Source: a bacterium (lineage in GTDB: Bacteria > Cyanobacteriota > Vampirovibrionia > Gastranaerophilales > Gastranaerophilaceae). From it: a DNA stretch of 64,000 nucleotides. The DNA lies in NCBI GenBank assembly GCA_017942035.1, contig JAGAVG010000011.1:1-64000 (forward strand), read 5' to 3'. Below are positions 11,299 to 60,698 of the stretch, one piece after another. Each line of letters starts with the position of its first letter. Positions within the stretch are counted from its first letter, which is position 1. The notes beneath the pieces are model-generated. The model worked only from the letters and a program-made list of their open reading frames with translations. It ran no database searches and had not been told where the DNA came from. Position numbers and translations under genes: made by a program.

Positions 11299-13638
11299 TT
11301 ATTTAATCCGCTTTTCAAGGGCATTTAAACGCGCTTCAAGGACCTTATTTTGGGCTTTCAATTGTTTATTCTCGGCCCTCAAGGTGTTCATGTCATTCTG
11401 AACTTGTTTCAGAATCTCTTTATCGCAACGGTTCTGACCCCTCACCCTAGCCCTCTCCCACAAGGGGCGAGGGGACAATGTGTCTTCTTCAACTGTAATC
11501 TGACCTTCACTTTGCAAAATCTGTTCTATTCTATCTACTCTTGCAGCAAGTTCTTTTATTGAATTCAACATTGCGTAAAACATTTCATCCCAGCGGATTT
11601 TTAAGTAGCCGTCGGTACCTTTTATGACCGCTTTCGGGAAAACTTTTTGCAAATCCTGCGCGATTACTCCAACATGAGCTTTTTTATCCGGATCTTTTTT
11701 GAAGGTAAAGTTATAAACTTTCAATTGTTTGATTTTTGCCAAACCTTCTGTATTCTCCCCTGAAATATTTTTCAACCGACGGTCAGAAGGAACGGTCGTG
11801 CCACTAACTTCTAACGTACCAGGGATTTTTACAAGAGCTGAGGATGTTCCGATAAACACAATTTCTTGGCTACTATTTGCATCGGATGTACCTCCAGCAG
11901 GACCTGAATATGCTCCAAGACATGTTTTATTACTGCCGGTTACAGCCTGACAAGCAAGCCTGCCAATTGCGGTATTAGCACTACCAGAAATGTTTGTAAA
12001 TAATGCACCATCTCCAACGGCAGTATTCATTATTCCATTCTGATTGTACAATAACGCCTGATAACCTACTGCAGTATTGTTATATCCGGTATTATTCCGT
12101 GCTAATGCACTAGTTCCTATGGACGTATTATGAGATCCGTTGGTATTATACTCTAACGCAGCATGCCCAATCGCAGTGTTACTGTAACCCGAAATATTTA
12201 AGCGTAATGCTCCATTTCCAGCCGCTGTATTACTACTGCCTGTAGTATTATGCCATAATGATAGATATCCTAAAGCCGTATTATAGCCACCGGTTGTATT
12301 ATAATATAAAGCATTTGTACCAACTGCAGTATTTTGACTACCTGTTGTATTTGATAATAACGTGCTGGTTCCTAATGCAGTATTATTAGCTCCAGTAGTA
12401 GTACTAGATAAAGCATGGAAGCCAACTCCTACATTATAAGCGCCGGAAGTATTTTGGCCTAAAGCGGCCTCTCCGAATGCTGTGTTATAACTTCCGGTTG
12501 TGTTTGCTTTTAAAGCAGAAGTTCCAAATGCGTTATTATAGCTTCCGGTTGTATTTGAATATAATGCTTGATAACCAAATGCGTTATTTTGAGTACCGGT
12601 CGTGTTCAGATTCAAGGCTCGACTTCCCGTGGCTGTATTATAGGATCCGGTTGTGTTTGCCCCCAATGCATAAGTTCCTACACCTGTATTGTAATTTGCG
12701 GTTGTATTATTGTTCAACACACCGTGTCCTATAGCCACATTACATCCGCCTGTTGTATTGTTCATTAAAGAACTATGTCCCAAAGCAGTATTACCAGCCC
12801 CGGTTGTATTTGTTCCCAATGAATAGAAACCCACAGCGGTATTTGTATGACCTGTTGTGTTTGCACGCATTGAATGACCACCTATAGCAGTGTTACTATA
12901 ACCTGTCGTATTTGAATATAAAGAATGAGTACCCACTGCTATGTTAGTATCACCTGCAGTATTTGAATATAATGCATTATACCCAATCGCAATATTTTCA
13001 TTACCTGTAGTGTTTGAGTATAACGAATTACTCCCTACAGCTATACCCCAAATACCGTCAGTATTTGAAGTCAATGCATTAACGCCCAATGCCGTATTTG
13101 CCCTGCCATTAGCATTAGATTTAAGTGACTTATATCCTATAGCGATACTATCAGCTCCGGGTTTTACATCTGTACCGATTCCTATTGAATTACTACCCAG
13201 TGCGCCGGTATTTTCGGCATCATCCGGAAGGCTTCCGAGCAAAAGTGCATTCGGTGTTACTCTCAAGGCGCCGGTTGTTGCGCTATTATTCTGGAACATA
13301 ATATGGTTCACTGCTCTATCGCCAGTGTTTATCAACAATCGGCCCGATGAATTTTCAGGGCGCTGAGGACGACCAATCATTGCCATTTGGTTAGCATTTC
13401 CGATACCGTATCTTATATCGCTCGTACCCTCAACCCATTTCCAAGGACTTGAAAGGTCAACTTTGCTTTTCCTTGTCATTACAGGCGCAAATGCAGCCAT
13501 GACAATCGAAAGGATTAGCATTACGACCATCATTTCTGCTAAAGTAAAACCGGAAAACGAAGAATTCTTTAATAGGGCTAAACCCTTATTAGGCTTAGAT
13601 TGCCCCCCCCCCCGCACGGGCAAATTCAATAATATCAA
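11299..13638 (-). CDS. Prepilin-leader, YadA-like repeat, peptidase-S74 protein, copy 1 (poly-G = 11)
   Basis: The N-terminus holds a type IV prepilin-type segment, FSG then FTLAEMMVVMLILSIVMAAF. Then come about 23 repeats of 17 residues of the form ALYSNTTGSYNTAVGYx, as in YadA/Hep_Hag head repeats. A peptidase-S74 chaperone domain follows: SDRRLKNI with the expected Ser/Lys dyad, then KKAHVGVIAQDLQKVFPKAV. The C-terminus is a coiled coil. The SD-preceded ATG at 13651 is out of frame here because the tract has 11 G's, and reading from it stops at A-I-stop. Only a TTG at 13638 with a poor ribosome site opens this frame. Residues near the S74/coil junction (TLSPRPLWERARVRG) come from an inserted dispersed repeat. 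Probably an OFF or low-expression state. Confidence 0.85.
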   Translation of the reverse strand: MILLNLPVRGGGQSKPNKGLALLKNSSFSGFTLAEMMVVMLILSIVMAAFAPVMTRKSKVDLSSPWKWVEGTSDIRYGIGNANQMAMIGRPQRPENSSGRLLINTGDRAVNHIMFQNNSATTGALRVTPNALLLGSLPDDAENTGALGSNSIGIGTDVKPGADSIAIGYKSLKSNANGRANTALGVNALTSNTDGIWGIAVGSNSLYSNTTGNENIAIGYNALYSNTAGDTNIAVGTHSLYSNTTGYSNTAIGGHSMRANTTGHTNTAVGFYSLGTNTTGAGNTALGHSSLMNNTTGGCNVAIGHGVLNNNTTANYNTGVGTYALGANTTGSYNTATGSRALNLNTTGTQNNAFGYQALYSNTTGSYNNAFGTSALKANTTGSYNTAFGEAALGQNTSGAYNVGVGFHALSSTTTGANNTALGTSTLLSNTTGSQNTAVGTNALYYNTTGGYNTALGYLSLWHNTTGSSNTAAGNGALRLNISGYSNTAIGHAALEYNTNGSHNTSIGTSALARNNTGYNNTAVGYQALLYNQNGIMNTAVGDGALFTNISGSANTAIGRLACQAVTGSNKTCLGAYSGPAGGTSDANSSQEIVFIGTSSALVKIPGTLEVSGTTVPSDRRLKNISGENTEGLAKIKQLKVYNFTFKKDPDKKAHVGVIAQDLQKVFPKAVIKGTDGYLKIRWDEMFYAMLNSIKELAARVDRIEQILQSEGQITVEEDTLSPRPLWERARVRGQNRCDKEILKQVQNDMNTLRAENKQLKAQNKVLEARLNALEKRIK
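13603..13613 (-). repeat. Poly-G tract (11 G) in the leader of S74 copy 1
   Basis: Eleven C's on the plus strand, between the start codon and the prepilin cleavage site. With 11 G's the ATG at 13651 runs into TAA; 10 would restore the frame. Confidence 0.85.
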
Positions 13639-13684
13639 TACTTTCAGCCATATCTATTTCCCTCTTTTTTTTAACTATATTCTT

Positions 13685-13712
13685 ATTATACCAATTTTTT
13701 GAACTTTTTCAA
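13685..13712 (-). promoter_or_regulatory. Sigma-70 promoter of S74 copy 1
   Basis: On the minus strand TTGAAA (13707-13712), 16 nt, TATAAT (13685-13690). The ribosome site GAGGG lies before the ATG at 13651. The promoter is conserved in all three paralogues. Confidence 0.75.
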
Positions 13713-45619: not shown

Positions 45620-47818
45620 TTATTTAATCCGCTTTTCAAGGGCATTTAAACGCGCTTCAAGGACCTTATTTTGGGCTTTCAATTGTTTGTTCTCGGCCCT
45701 CAAGGTGTTCATGTCATTCTGAACTTGTTTCAAAGTTTCATCCGTTTTATCAATTCTTGCGGCAAGTTCTTTTATTGAATTCAACATTGCGTAAAACATT
45801 TCATCCCAGCGGATTTTTAAGTAGCCATCAGTGCCTTTTATGACCGCTTTCGGGAAAACTTTTTGCAAATCCTGCGCGATTACTCCAACATGAGCTTTTT
45901 TATCCGGATCTTTTTTGAAGGTGAAATTATAAACTTTCAATTGTTTGATTTTTGCCAAACCTTCTGTATTTTCACCTGTTATATTTTTCAAACGTTTGTC
46001 AGAAGTATATGCGGCGGTGCTTGCGGCCTGCAATTGACCCGGTATTTTCACCACACTGGAAGATGTTCCTAAAAATACGATATTATCTGCACTGCTGGCC
46101 TCTGCTGTACCTTCTGCGGGACCGGAATATGCGCCAAGACATGTTTTATTACTGCCGGTTACATTAGAACAGGCATGAAGCCCAATCGCTGTATTATAAG
46201 ATCCGGTGGAACTAGCCTGCAAGGCTCTTTCACCAAGTGCACTATTTCCAGCTCCGGAAGTGTTATTTATTAAGGTAGTACTTCCAACAGCTGTATTGTA
46301 ATTTGATTTATTACTTGCTAATGCACTTATACCTATTGCGGTATTAAACTCCCCAGAAGTATTTGATGATAGTGCATCACTTCCTATCCCTATATTACCA
46401 ACACCTATTGTGTTAGACTGTAATGCTCTACTACCGACCGCTGTATTACTAGAGCCTGTAGTATTCTTGAATAATGATTGATATCCCAAGGCCGTATTAT
46501 AACCACCGGTTGTATTTGAATTTAACACATTATATCCTGCGGCAACATTACCACTACCCGTAGTATTTGCAACCAACGTAAAAGAACCAATAGCCACATT
46601 ATTGCTTCCTGAATTGTCATGACTGCTTAAAGAATAAGATCCTATAGCTGTATTATGGCCCCCAGAACAACGATATAAAGCTCCAGTTCCTATTGCAATA
46701 CTTGAAGAGCTTCCTTCATTAGTATCAGCCGCTGCGTTATTACCAATTGCAACATCTACTCCTCCAGAGTATCCAGCCTTATAACCAATTGATATATGCT
46801 TCAAAATACCTGAAGATTTATATCCAGCTTTATAACCTATAATTACTTCTCCACCTTCAGTCATTGTATCCGGCGAATTTGCTAAATCAGGAACATAAGA
46901 ATATCCAGCTTGATAACCAATGATAACAGCATCTTTAATTGCATTTGCAGCATACCCAGCTTGGTAACCAATCGTTACATTATTACTTGAGTTAGGTAGA
47001 TTTTTACCGCTATCATGCATTACCTGATAACCTATAGCAGTATTACCCGTGCCAATATCATTAGTTAGAGCCTCATGTCCAATAGCAACATTGCCATTAC
47101 CCGCAAAATCATCCTTTAATGCGCCATTGCCTATTGCTATATTATAATTTTTAGTATCATCAGACATTGTGTTGGAGGTTGCAAACAACGCAAAATCACC
47201 TATTGCTATATTATTACTACCATATTTCCCTTCATTTAAAGGTCTTCCACCTATTGCTGCTCGACCTATTGAAATGCTATTATTATGAGCTTTTGTATAA
47301 GAACCTATCGCAATACTGCCATCATGCCTAACATCAACGTCTGGTCCTATTGCTATAGATATTGAAGGAATTACATGTGAACCTTCATCTTCATGATCAT
47401 TCTCAGTACCTATAAGGTACAAACCTTCATCCATTCGCATTACAGCAGATGTAGTACCTGTATTTTGAAATATCAAATGATCACGATTGTTTGCATCAGC
47501 ATTCAACAGTAAACGACCAGAGGAACCTTCCGGACGTTCGGGACGTCCAATCATTGCCATCTGATTCGTACCTTGTGCAGCATACTTAATGTCACCAGTT
47601 CCCTCAACCCATTTCCATGGACTGCTTGATGACATATCAACTTTGCTTTTCCTTGTCATTACAGGCGCAAACGCGGCCATAACAATCGAAAGGATTAGCA
47701 TTACGACCATCATTTCAGCTAAAGTAAAACCGGAAAACGAAGAATTCTTTAATAGGGCTAAACCCTTATTAGGCTTAGATTGCCCCCCCCCCCGTACGGG
47801 CAAATTCAATAATATCAA
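45620..47818 (-). CDS. Prepilin-leader, YadA-like repeat, peptidase-S74 protein, copy 2 (poly-G = 11)
   Basis: The prepilin-type segment is identical to copy 1. The head is different: more irregular SIAIG/IGYKAGY YadA-like repeats to about residue 370, then about a dozen 17-residue NTTGxxNTAVG repeats. The S74 domain begins with TSDKRLKNI (Ser/Lys dyad kept). The coiled coil lacks the repeat-derived insert of the other copies, reading IDKTDETLKQVQNDM. The SD-preceded ATG at 47831 is out of frame because the tract has 11 G's; the frame opens only from a TTG at 47818. Same promoter and terminator as its paralogues. Confidence 0.85.
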   Translation of the reverse strand: MILLNLPVRGGGQSKPNKGLALLKNSSFSGFTLAEMMVVMLILSIVMAAFAPVMTRKSKVDMSSSSPWKWVEGTGDIKYAAQGTNQMAMIGRPERPEGSSGRLLLNADANNRDHLIFQNTGTTSAVMRMDEGLYLIGTENDHEDEGSHVIPSISIAIGPDVDVRHDGSIAIGSYTKAHNNSISIGRAAIGGRPLNEGKYGSNNIAIGDFALFATSNTMSDDTKNYNIAIGNGALKDDFAGNGNVAIGHEALTNDIGTGNTAIGYQVMHDSGKNLPNSSNNVTIGYQAGYAANAIKDAVIIGYQAGYSYVPDLANSPDTMTEGGEVIIGYKAGYKSSGILKHISIGYKAGYSGGVDVAIGNNAAADTNEGSSSSIAIGTGALYRCSGGHNTAIGSYSLSSHDNSGSNNVAIGSFTLVANTTGSGNVAAGYNVLNSNTTGGYNTALGYQSLFKNTTGSSNTAVGSRALQSNTIGVGNIGIGSDALSSNTSGEFNTAIGISALASNKSNYNTAVGSTTLINNTSGAGNSALGERALQASSTGSYNTAIGLHACSNVTGSNKTCLGAYSGPAEGTAEASSADNIVFLGTSSSVVKIPGQLQAASTAAYTSDKRLKNITGENTEGLAKIKQLKVYNFTFKKDPDKKAHVGVIAQDLQKVFPKAVIKGTDGYLKIRWDEMFYAMLNSIKELAARIDKTDETLKQVQNDMNTLRAENKQLKAQNKVLEARLNALEKRIK
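47783..47793 (-). repeat. Poly-G tract (11 G) in the leader of S74 copy 2
   Basis: Eleven C's on the plus strand, at the same site as in the other two genes; this puts the ATG at 47831 out of frame. Confidence 0.85.
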
Positions 47819-47864
47819 TACTTTCAGCCATATCTATTTCCCTCTTTTTTTTAACTATATTCTT

Positions 47865-47892
47865 ATTATACCAATTTTTTGAACTTTTTCAA
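47865..47892 (-). promoter_or_regulatory. Sigma-70 promoter of S74 copy 2
   Basis: On the minus strand TTGAAA (47887-47892), 16 nt, TATAAT (47865-47870); identical to copy 1. Confidence 0.75.
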
Positions 47893-58233: not shown

Positions 58234-60636
58234 TTATTTAATCCGCTTTTCAAGGGCATTTAAACGCGCTTCAAGGGCTTTGTTTTGGGCTTTCAATTGT
58301 TTGTTCTCGGCCCTCAAGGTGTTCATGTCATTCTGAACTTGTTTCAGAATCTCTTTATCGCAACGGTTCTGACCCCTCACCCTAGCCCTCTCCCACAAGG
58401 GGCGAGGGGACAATGTGTCTTCTTCAACAATAATCTGACCTTCACTTTGCAAAATCTGTTCTATTCTATCTATTCTTGCGGCAAGTTCTTTTATTGAATT
58501 CAGCATTGCGTAAAACATTTCATCCCAGCGGATTTTCAAGTAGCCGTCGGTGCCTTTTATGACCGCTTTCGGGAAAACTTTTTGCAAATCCTGCGCGATT
58601 ACTCCAACATGAGCTTTTTTATCCGGATCTTTTTTGAAGGTGAAATTATAAACTTTCAATTGACGAATTTTTGCCAAACCTTCTGTATTTTCGCTTGTTA
58701 TATTTTTCAAACGTTTGTCAGAAGTATACGCGGCAGTGCTTGCAGCCTGCAACTGACCCGGTATTTTCACCACACTGGAGGATGTTCCGATATATACAAT
58801 TGTAGCCCCATTACTAGCCTCTGAAGTCCCAGATGCAGGCCCAGAAAATGCACCAATACAAGTTTTGTTACTGCCCGTTACATGATAGCAAGCCTGATGT
58901 CCAAGCGCGGTATTGTTAAAGCCAGCAGATTTTTCCAATGCTTGTGAACCAAGAGCTGTGTTTGCAGAGCCAGTAGCATTTGAATATAATGAATTAATCC
59001 CCAGTGCCGTGTTATGCTGTCCGGTAGTATTTGAATACAATGCACTCATCCCAATTGCGGTATTAACTTGACCGGTAGTGTTTACAAATAATGCTCCATT
59101 TCCAACCGCAGTATTACCACTGCCTGTAGTATTTGCATTTAATGCACTATTCCCGACCGCGGTATTAGTATTCCCTGTAATATTTAAACTTAATGCATGA
59201 TAACCGAAGGCCGTATTATAATTAGCCGTAGTATTTGAGAATAGTGCACCATGCCCCATCGCAGTATTATAGTTACCACTCGTATTATTATGTAAAGCCC
59301 CATAGCCAAAGGCGTTATTATAGATTCCGTAGGTATTTGCATTCAATGCATAAACTCCAAATGCATTGTTATAATCTCCGCTTGTATTTTTCCACAATGC
59401 ATTATATCCCAAGGCCGTATTATAATTACCAGTAGTGTTTGCATATAATGCTTCACCTCCAACTGCTGTGTTACTACTGCCTGTAGTATTTGAATTTAAT
59501 GCAAGATAACCGGTAGCAGTATTATCATGACCTGTTGTATTAGAGGCTAATACATTAGCTCCTGTGACTGTATTATGATAACCAGTAGTATTTGAAGTTA
59601 ATGCACGATGCCCTATTGCTGTATTATCCCAACCTGTAGTATTTGAATATAATGCCGAAACTCCCATAGCTGTATTATAAGATCCAGTAGTATTAGCCTG
59701 CAATGCATAAGTTCCTACGCCTGTATTAGAATCAGCAGTTGTATTATTGTTCAACACTCCGTGTCCTATAGCTATATTCATGCCTCCCGTAGTATTTTTG
59801 TTTAATGCCTTTTCTCCTATGGCTATATTACTACTACCGGTAGTGTTGTATTGCAATGCAACATATCCAATGCCAACATTGCTGTTTCCTTCAGTATTTA
59901 CAGATAACGCACTTTCACCCATTGCAACATTTTTGCTTCCGGTAGTGTTACTGTATAATACCCAATTACCAACAGCATTATTTGCGCTACCGGTAGTATT
60001 TGAATACAATACATGATTTCCTAAAGCTGTATTGTTATGTCCTGTGGTATTTGAGTATAATGTCATTGTGCCTAAAGCGGTGTTATAACCAGCTCCGGCA
60101 TTTGATTTTAGCGATTGGTATCCTATAGCTATACTGTCAGCACCGGGTTTTACATCTGTACCTATACCTATTGAATTACTACCCAGTGCGCCGGTGTTTT
60201 CTGCATCATCCGGAAGGCTTCCTAGCAAAAGTGCATTTGGTGTTACTCTCAAGGCGCCGGTTGTTGCGCTATTATTCTGGAACATAATATGGTTCACTGC
60301 TCTATCGCCAGTGTTTATCAGCAAACGACCAGAGGAACCTTCCGGACGCTGAGGACGTCCAATCATTGCCATTTGGTTTGCGTTGCCGATACCGTATCTT
60401 ATATCGCTCGTACCCTCAACCCATTTCCAAGGGCTTGACATATCAACTTTGCTTTTCCTTGTCATTACAGGCGCAAACGCGGCCATAACAATCGAAAGGA
60501 TCAGCATTACGACCATCATTTCAGCTAAAGTAAAACCGGAAAACGAAGAATTCTTTAATAGGGCTAAACCCTTATTAGGCTTAGATTGCCCCCCCCCCGC
60601 ACGGGCAAATTCAATAATATCAATACTTTCAGCCAT
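58234..60636 (-). CDS. Prepilin-leader, YadA-like repeat, peptidase-S74 protein, copy 3 (poly-G = 10, in frame)
   Basis: The ATG at 60636 with GAGGA 8 nt upstream is in frame. MAESIDIIEFARAGGGQSKP leads to the prepilin site FSG/FTLAEMMVVMLILSIVMAAF. About 24 repeats of 17 residues (ALYSNTTGxxNTALGxx) follow, from about residue 170 to 590. The S74 chaperone starts TSDKRLKNI and includes VGVIAQDLQKVFPKAV. A trimeric-type coiled coil (NTLRAENKQLKAQNKALEAR) ends it. The TLSPRPLWERARVRG stretch is repeat-derived, as in copy 1. The product may be a pilus- or membrane-anchored adhesive fibre whose S74 domain folds and cleaves itself off. This copy is in the ON state. Confidence 0.88.
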   Translation of the reverse strand: MAESIDIIEFARAGGGQSKPNKGLALLKNSSFSGFTLAEMMVVMLILSIVMAAFAPVMTRKSKVDMSSPWKWVEGTSDIRYGIGNANQMAMIGRPQRPEGSSGRLLINTGDRAVNHIMFQNNSATTGALRVTPNALLLGSLPDDAENTGALGSNSIGIGTDVKPGADSIAIGYQSLKSNAGAGYNTALGTMTLYSNTTGHNNTALGNHVLYSNTTGSANNAVGNWVLYSNTTGSKNVAMGESALSVNTEGNSNVGIGYVALQYNTTGSSNIAIGEKALNKNTTGGMNIAIGHGVLNNNTTADSNTGVGTYALQANTTGSYNTAMGVSALYSNTTGWDNTAIGHRALTSNTTGYHNTVTGANVLASNTTGHDNTATGYLALNSNTTGSSNTAVGGEALYANTTGNYNTALGYNALWKNTSGDYNNAFGVYALNANTYGIYNNAFGYGALHNNTSGNYNTAMGHGALFSNTTANYNTAFGYHALSLNITGNTNTAVGNSALNANTTGSGNTAVGNGALFVNTTGQVNTAIGMSALYSNTTGQHNTALGINSLYSNATGSANTALGSQALEKSAGFNNTALGHQACYHVTGSNKTCIGAFSGPASGTSEASNGATIVYIGTSSSVVKIPGQLQAASTAAYTSDKRLKNITSENTEGLAKIRQLKVYNFTFKKDPDKKAHVGVIAQDLQKVFPKAVIKGTDGYLKIRWDEMFYAMLNSIKELAARIDRIEQILQSEGQIIVEEDTLSPRPLWERARVRGQNRCDKEILKQVQNDMNTLRAENKQLKAQNKALEARLNALEKRIK
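60589..60598 (-). repeat. Poly-G tract (10 G) in the leader of S74 copy 3
   Basis: Ten C's on the plus strand, at the site where copies 1 and 2 have eleven. Ten G's put the SD-preceded ATG in frame. Confidence 0.85.
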
Positions 60637-60670
60637 ATCTATTTTCCTCTTTTTTTAAAACTATATTCTT

Positions 60671-60698
60671 ATTATACCAATTTTTTGAACTTTTTCAA
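60671..60698 (-). promoter_or_regulatory. Sigma-70 promoter of S74 copy 3
   Basis: On the minus strand TTGAAA (60693-60698), 16 nt, TATAAT (60671-60676), as in copies 1 and 2. Confidence 0.75.

Follow-up and report, generated by a model that had tools for sequence, protein, structure and literature searches.

Poly-G tracts in the leaders of prepilin-type genes as probable phase switches in Gastranaerophilales

Phase variation by slippage is known above all from proteobacterial pathogens of mucosal surfaces. Candidatus Gastranaerophilales are uncultured, non-photosynthetic gut relatives of cyanobacteria, and in the 64-kb stretch of DNA analysed here (the window) three paralogous fibre genes carry a long run of G's between the start codon and a prepilin signal. 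The question raised by this locus is whether these runs switch the genes on and off by their length, or whether they are there for another reason. Judging from the sequences, they probably serve translational phase variation by slipped-strand mispairing, and the window would be a small case of a lineage-wide pilin 'phasome' that is mostly OFF.

Three S74-fibre genes and their tracts

The minus strand of the window carries three S74-fibre paralogues (copies 1, 2 and 3), with ends at 11299, 45620 and 58234. On the coding strand (C on the plus strand), they contain G runs of 11, 11 and 10, respectively, at 13603-13613, 47783-47793 and 60589-60598, exactly where the original prediction had placed them; its own coordinates, 58234-60636, are those of copy 3, copies 1 and 2 lying elsewhere in the window. 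These tracts are the sole G/C runs of at least 7 in the 64 kb scanned, and a first-order model of the window gives a chance expectation of 0.012 runs of at least 10 and 0.28 of at least 8. A promoter-like sequence, TTGAAA-16 nt-TATAAT, is common to all three copies, as are the distances of 38 nt from the A of the ATG to the first G and of 51 nt from the tract to the prepilin motif GFTLAE. The features are as follows:

60671..60698, minus strand: copy 3, promoter-like TTGAAA-16 nt-TATAAT, present in all three copies and near-identical at a tract-less fourth paralogue
60634..60649, minus strand: copy 3, SD GAGG (60646-60649) and ATG (60634-60636), from the sequence
60589..60598, minus strand: copy 3, tract of 10 G, ATG in frame, ON (run scan, translation)
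60570..60588, minus strand: copy 3, post-tract leader CAATCTAAGCCTAATAAGG, with the out-of-frame TAA that ends the 11-G frame (sequence)
60520..60537, minus strand: copy 3, prepilin motif GFTLAE (PF07963, TIGR02532)
58234..60636, minus strand: copy 3, gene for an 800-aa pilin-anchored S74 fibre, ATG in frame (ORF, Pfam)
58705..58722, minus strand: copy 3, S74 autoproteolysis motif SDKRLK, SDxxxK (Pfam; motif per PMC10769870)
13603..13613, minus strand: copy 1, tract of 11 G, OFF from the ATG at 13651 (run scan, translation)
11299..13651, minus strand: copy 1, gene with the ATG at 13651 out of frame; fibre ORF 11299-13638 from a TTG
13685..13712, minus strand: copy 1, promoter-like sequence (sequence)
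47783..47793, minus strand: copy 2, tract of 11 G, OFF from the ATG at 47831 (run scan, translation)
45620..47831, minus strand: copy 2, gene with the ATG at 47831 out of frame; fibre ORF 45620-47818 from a TTG
47865..47892, minus strand: copy 2, promoter-like sequence (sequence)

The tracts are thus 10-11 G's in the 5' coding region, with an SD/ATG upstream and a prepilin motif downstream, and the repeat number sets the frame, with early termination in the others. Ten G's join the ATG to the protein frame, as in copy 3, whose translation reads MAESIDIIEFARAGGGQSKPNKGLALLKNSSFS/GFTLAEMM. With 11 G's, as in copies 1 and 2, the ATG frame ends directly 3' of the tract (GCA ATC TAA), and the in-frame start codons are only TTG or GTG, without a good SD. 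With 12 G's, a TGA closes the protein frame upstream and a TAG ends the ATG frame. These translations agree with the frames read by hand in the original prediction, in which 10 connects the ATG to the protein and 11 and 12 break it.

The proposed mechanism would begin with transcription of the three window genes from the one promoter-like sequence that they share, followed by a ribosome that starts at the SD/ATG and enters the tract 38 nt on. At 10 G's, translation would reach the prepilin signal, whereas any other length mod 3 would lead to an early stop and no fibre; a single G gained or lost during replication would switch an individual cell from one state to the other. Prepilin peptidase would presumably cut the product, whose N-terminal helix would fix it either to the membrane or to a filament of the type IV pilus/T2SS kind, and what is displayed would be a beta-solenoid fibre matured by the S74 domain. 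Tens of prepilin-type genes in many genomes of the order would stand under this same leader switch, mostly OFF in consensus. Slippage in living cells, its reversibility, surface display and a benefit are what we infer, the benefit presumably lying in diversification with regard to phage, host immunity or attachment targets.

Regarding the proteins, Pfam detects Peptidase_S74 (PF13884, E about 1e-15) and N_methyl (PF07963) in all three copies. The C-terminal S74 domain has SDRRLK or SDKRLK (SDxxxK) in each, and the prepilin signal G/FTLxE is followed by a hydrophobic helix (PF07963, TIGR02532; low-confidence model), bearing out, from Pfam and the sequence, the earlier description of prepilin-anchored S74 paralogues with a tract between SD/ATG and cleavage site. 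The prepilin motif points to display of the fibres on a filament or the membrane. An AlphaFold model from the three-copy alignment shows a helix (37-58) followed by beta-strand repeats (~155-595), with a mean pLDDT of 60 and low confidence elsewhere; Foldseek returned no significant match to this low-confidence model from three sequences, nor did a PDB sequence search with the fibre return any. Identity among the copies is 86-100% in the first few hundred bases and in most of the S74 ends, and about 40-60% in the repeat region, which suggests exchange of the ends or fast turnover of the middle. The family had been called antigenically variable, a term that goes beyond what is seen, namely strongly differing fibre middles between near-identical ends.

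At 58370-58430 of the window, the C-terminal coiled coil of copies 1 and 3 contains an insert, LSPRPLWERARVRG, derived from CCCTCACCCTAGCCCTCTCCC-type DNA and missing from copy 2 and from the copy on contig C77. DNA of this type also lies between genes, e.g. around 60800, and looks like a dispersed repeat, here inserted in frame.

The C77 copy is a fourth paralogue with 79% identity to the window copies across the N-terminal region. It has a near-identical promoter region, the ATG and the GFTLAEMMVVML start, and its leader, MTEDTEMFGIGVPLRAKDKKNNKHSGKNNIVQSGMKL, reads open without the tract and its glycines. Since the promoter is the same and the tract absent, the tract is best seen as an optional addition to the S74-fibre family, and this paralogue shows that the protein does not need it. 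This bears on another possible role of the G run, as a glycine linker or as a recombination or quadruplex signal for paralogue exchange, with frame changes incidental: the run does encode GGG when in frame, and the copies do look as if ends had been exchanged or conserved around a divergent middle, but the tract-less paralogue lacks those very glycines.

The window's own genome (G000; 1.99 Mb, 84 contigs) holds ten G runs of at least 8, and of these just the three window tracts lie in recognisable prepilin leaders. Four further G/C runs of 11-12, on C26, C59 and C75 (L220, L221, L223, L224), are found outside such leaders, near or in other genes, as possible further switches.

Distribution of the leader architecture

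The pattern searched for across genomes consisted of poly-G, a short spacer and GFTxxxE, with the reversed pattern as control. It was found in 93 of 383 genomes of the order and in 17 of the 52 genera sampled, while the control gave 0 matches in the same 383. All but two of the matching genomes (G043 and G050, from another family) belong to the family of the window. A phylum-wide draw of ~165 genomes outside the order gave six matches, at most two per genome, which is consistent with chance, and the viral contigs searched had none. The exact window leader, sought among 59 relatives, matched its own genome alone, so the leader sequence is local and the architecture lineage-wide. No second strain of the window's species was found in a scan of genome contigs, where the best identity was 62%.

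The number of runs of at least 8 is 93 in G024, 116 in G145 (within 1.7 Mb) and 72 in G132; G000 has 10, its congener G001 none, and G062 has 101 runs of at least 9. Among 246 distinct fetched tracts of at least 8, a sample chosen partly for the motif, 197 have a start on their 5' side and a prepilin motif on their 3' side. This share is 50/59, 46/56, 22/32 and 18/29, jointly 77%, in the four genomes whose tracts were taken mainly by position. Poly-C replaces poly-G in 5 leaders of G024 and 17 of G062, and some tracts outside the 197 resemble leaders with longer inserts or without a pilin. In other genera, most tract-controlled products are prepilin-type proteins of about 200-330 residues, S74 fibres being among them in g1, g7 and g51. 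Loss of MutS as the cause of the length differences was rejected, MutS being present in all 12 genomes tested, and slippage therefore need not be fast.

Two other arrangements of G runs were observed. Orphan leaders in G078 (L239, L290, L296, L297, L300) consist of SD-ATG, ~10 codons, poly-G and a terminator-like hairpin, with no pilin. G002, of the same genus, has a repeated element (L227-L230, L233-L235) with poly-G of 9-18 within a promoter-like spacer, TTGACC-CGC-Gn-..-TATAAT, the spacer being 15-24 nt long and no downstream ORF of more than 34 aa having been found; this is perhaps promoter-spacer phase variation of a short RNA.

A second layer of variation is found in G065, where two reverse-transcriptase loci have template repeats that match the last codons of the poly-G pilins L156 and L158, the matched C-termini sitting on other contigs than the repeats. 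Between L318:929-1050 and L156:8135-8256, 20 of 25 mismatches fall at template A, as do 18 of 20 between L312:2865-3009 and L158:13682-13826. As read from these sequences, the pattern is characteristic of a diversity-generating retroelement, its targets here being genes that would also be under the poly-G switch. The retroelement search gave no RVT_1 match in the window's own genome. In G011, the RT loci L315 and L317 have their own template/target pairs.

Tract states and alternative explanations

Every tract length used here is a consensus call from a MAG. An SD-backed ATG is present at 188 loci; the tract leaves it in frame at 35 of them, lacks one G at 116 and has one too many at 37, so that 153 are OFF in consensus; these counts are not independent, since paralogues share leaders. 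A set of 76 S74-type fibre starts from named records includes 25 with a tract (8 ON, 14 one short, 2 one over, 1 unassigned). The state is coherent per genome, G024 and G062 being mostly one short (n=10) and G145 mostly in frame (n=12), and ON, one-short and one-over loci also occur side by side in single assemblies. In G078 the length follows the register, with 12 of 15 loci one G over (permutation p 0.0004; L244, L292-L307), a regularity that simple slippage does not explain.

The original prediction had proposed three states, the intermediate one being low expression from a TTG at 11 G's. Whereas the on/off poly-G in the leader and the differing states of the paralogues find support, the 'low' state does not: an ATG, GTG or TTG in the protein frame between ATG and tract is found in just 18 of 153 OFF loci, of which a single one has an SD-like site, and among OFF S74 loci in 1 of 16. 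Given this rarity, the TTG of copies 1 and 2 is most simply put down to chance, and we take the switch to have two states, OFF being reached at two lengths.

A test independent of length calls comes from the stops in the wrong frames. In 133 of 193 leaders, the stretch from the tract to the prepilin motif contains stops in both wrong frames, where synonymous re-coding predicts 65 such leaders and codon shuffling 70, and 133 was reached in 0 of 500 trials. The excess holds under both nulls (p<0.05) in five of six genera tested singly and under one null in the sixth, although paralogy lowers the effective n. This excess calls for a reason that has to do with the frame. A role of the run as linker or exchange signal does not supply one, and given also that poly-C leaders encode proline and that most lengths are out of frame, such a role is extremely unlikely.

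That short-read assembly miscounts G runs by one, the true lengths being fixed and in frame, deserves consideration, since every length is a MAG consensus and the off-by-one states are coherent within each assembly. However, lengths vary inside one assembly (11/11/10 in the window, 10/11/12 in G024, 10-16 in G145), the stop excess makes no use of the length calls, and one would still have to explain why so many AT-rich leaders have a long G run of fixed length, which makes this artefact very unlikely.

Slipped-strand switching, the preferred reading, further predicts that repeat number outpaces its flanks, as it does in paralogue pairs and in one pair of sister species. The 30 nt on each side of the tract are identical save one base among the window copies, whose lengths differ; L082 and L085, from one genome and with the same leader, have 11 (ON) and 10 (OFF), and further same-genome pairs have 11/12, 12/11, 12/10 and 12/10. 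The sister species G176 and G187 have G10A and G9, with 200 nt identical on both sides; 998 of 1003 aligned columns are identical at this locus, the remainder being three substitutions and two columns of the tract. This pair came from targeted regions, the first sample having given no near-identical leader pairs across species. Counted against the switch are near-identical paralogues of unchanged length (9/9/9 in G065, 13/13 in G175) and the 87 of 96 leader tracts of G024 and G062 that share length or state, a smaller spread than one might expect if single clones slipped freely.

This uniformity also bears on programmed recoding, in which the tract would be kept out of frame by one G and expression would be low and constitutive, through ribosomal frameshifting or slippage of RNA polymerase on the run, instead of heritably switched. 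A reading by -1 frameshift only was considered because one-short states dominate (116/188). In favour of recoding are this dominance, almost uniform in G024 and G062, the early stop met in the unshifted frame and the register-tracking one-over lengths of G078. Nevertheless, it is kept just as a rival, since most loci are one over in G078 and in frame in G145: the direction varies, poly-C leaders act like poly-G leaders, exact in-frame loci occur in most genomes sampled, and near-identical copies differ in length. Taken together, recoding seems unlikely. The uniform lengths of G024 and G062 and the register-following ones of G078 fit a mostly-OFF population and leave room for recoding or assembly bias.

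Related systems and significance

The poly-G tract of pilC, one of the poly-G contingency genes of pathogenic Neisseria, sits in the signal-peptide region. This gene is phase-variable in 145 of 205 sequences, and N. meningitidis, N. gonorrhoeae and N. lactamica have means of 15-19 poly-G tracts per genome (PMC5953494). As proposed for the present case, a pilus-related gene is switched by the reading frame that a G run in the 5' part of its coding sequence imposes. However, one or two pilus adhesin genes are concerned in Neisseria and tens of prepilin-type proteins themselves per genome in Gastranaerophilales, with up to 116 tracts against 15-19, even though the cut-offs are not identical. In Campylobacter and Helicobacter, which lack full mismatch repair, tracts are about 8-12 long and the switched genes have mostly to do with surface sugars and modification. 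Their G/C homopolymers are described as translational switches of surface genes (PMC8355987). Gastranaerophilales share the kind of switch and similar lengths, but here prepilin-type proteins are switched and MutS is present.

The fibres themselves resemble the mosaic adhesive trimer (MAT) fibres of Bdellovibrio, which have a conserved N-terminus, a variable shaft and an S74 SDxxxK domain (PMC10769870). Whereas the MATs have a signal peptide and no switch described (PMC10769870), the window fibres have a prepilin anchor and a poly-G switch. G065 shows the same A-biased template/target mismatches as diversity-generating retroelements, and its target also has an on/off tract. A search of open-licence literature gave no paper on phase variation in Gastranaerophilales or retroelements in Melainabacteria, and no title or abstract on such switching of pili or pilins in Gastranaerophilales. 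The class of mechanism is known; the lineage, the prepilin-leader site, the scale and the mostly-OFF state are apparently undescribed in the open-licence literature searched.

We lean towards the view that Gastranaerophilales have one of the largest bacterial phasomes, with up to ~100 prepilin-type genes per genome, each switched by a poly-G or poly-C tract of its own and mostly OFF, and each cell showing a small random subset of pilins whose C-termini, in some species, are also retroelement-diversified. The switches would cluster in a single class of proteins, at a higher density than in Neisseria, and would account for genes called from false starts in these genomes. The prediction of tract-length mixtures per locus and per host is checkable in existing metagenomes. 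If true, this would be a natural example of a surface repertoire kept mostly OFF, with retroelement diversification added in places, so that one pilin protein is under two layers of programmed variation.
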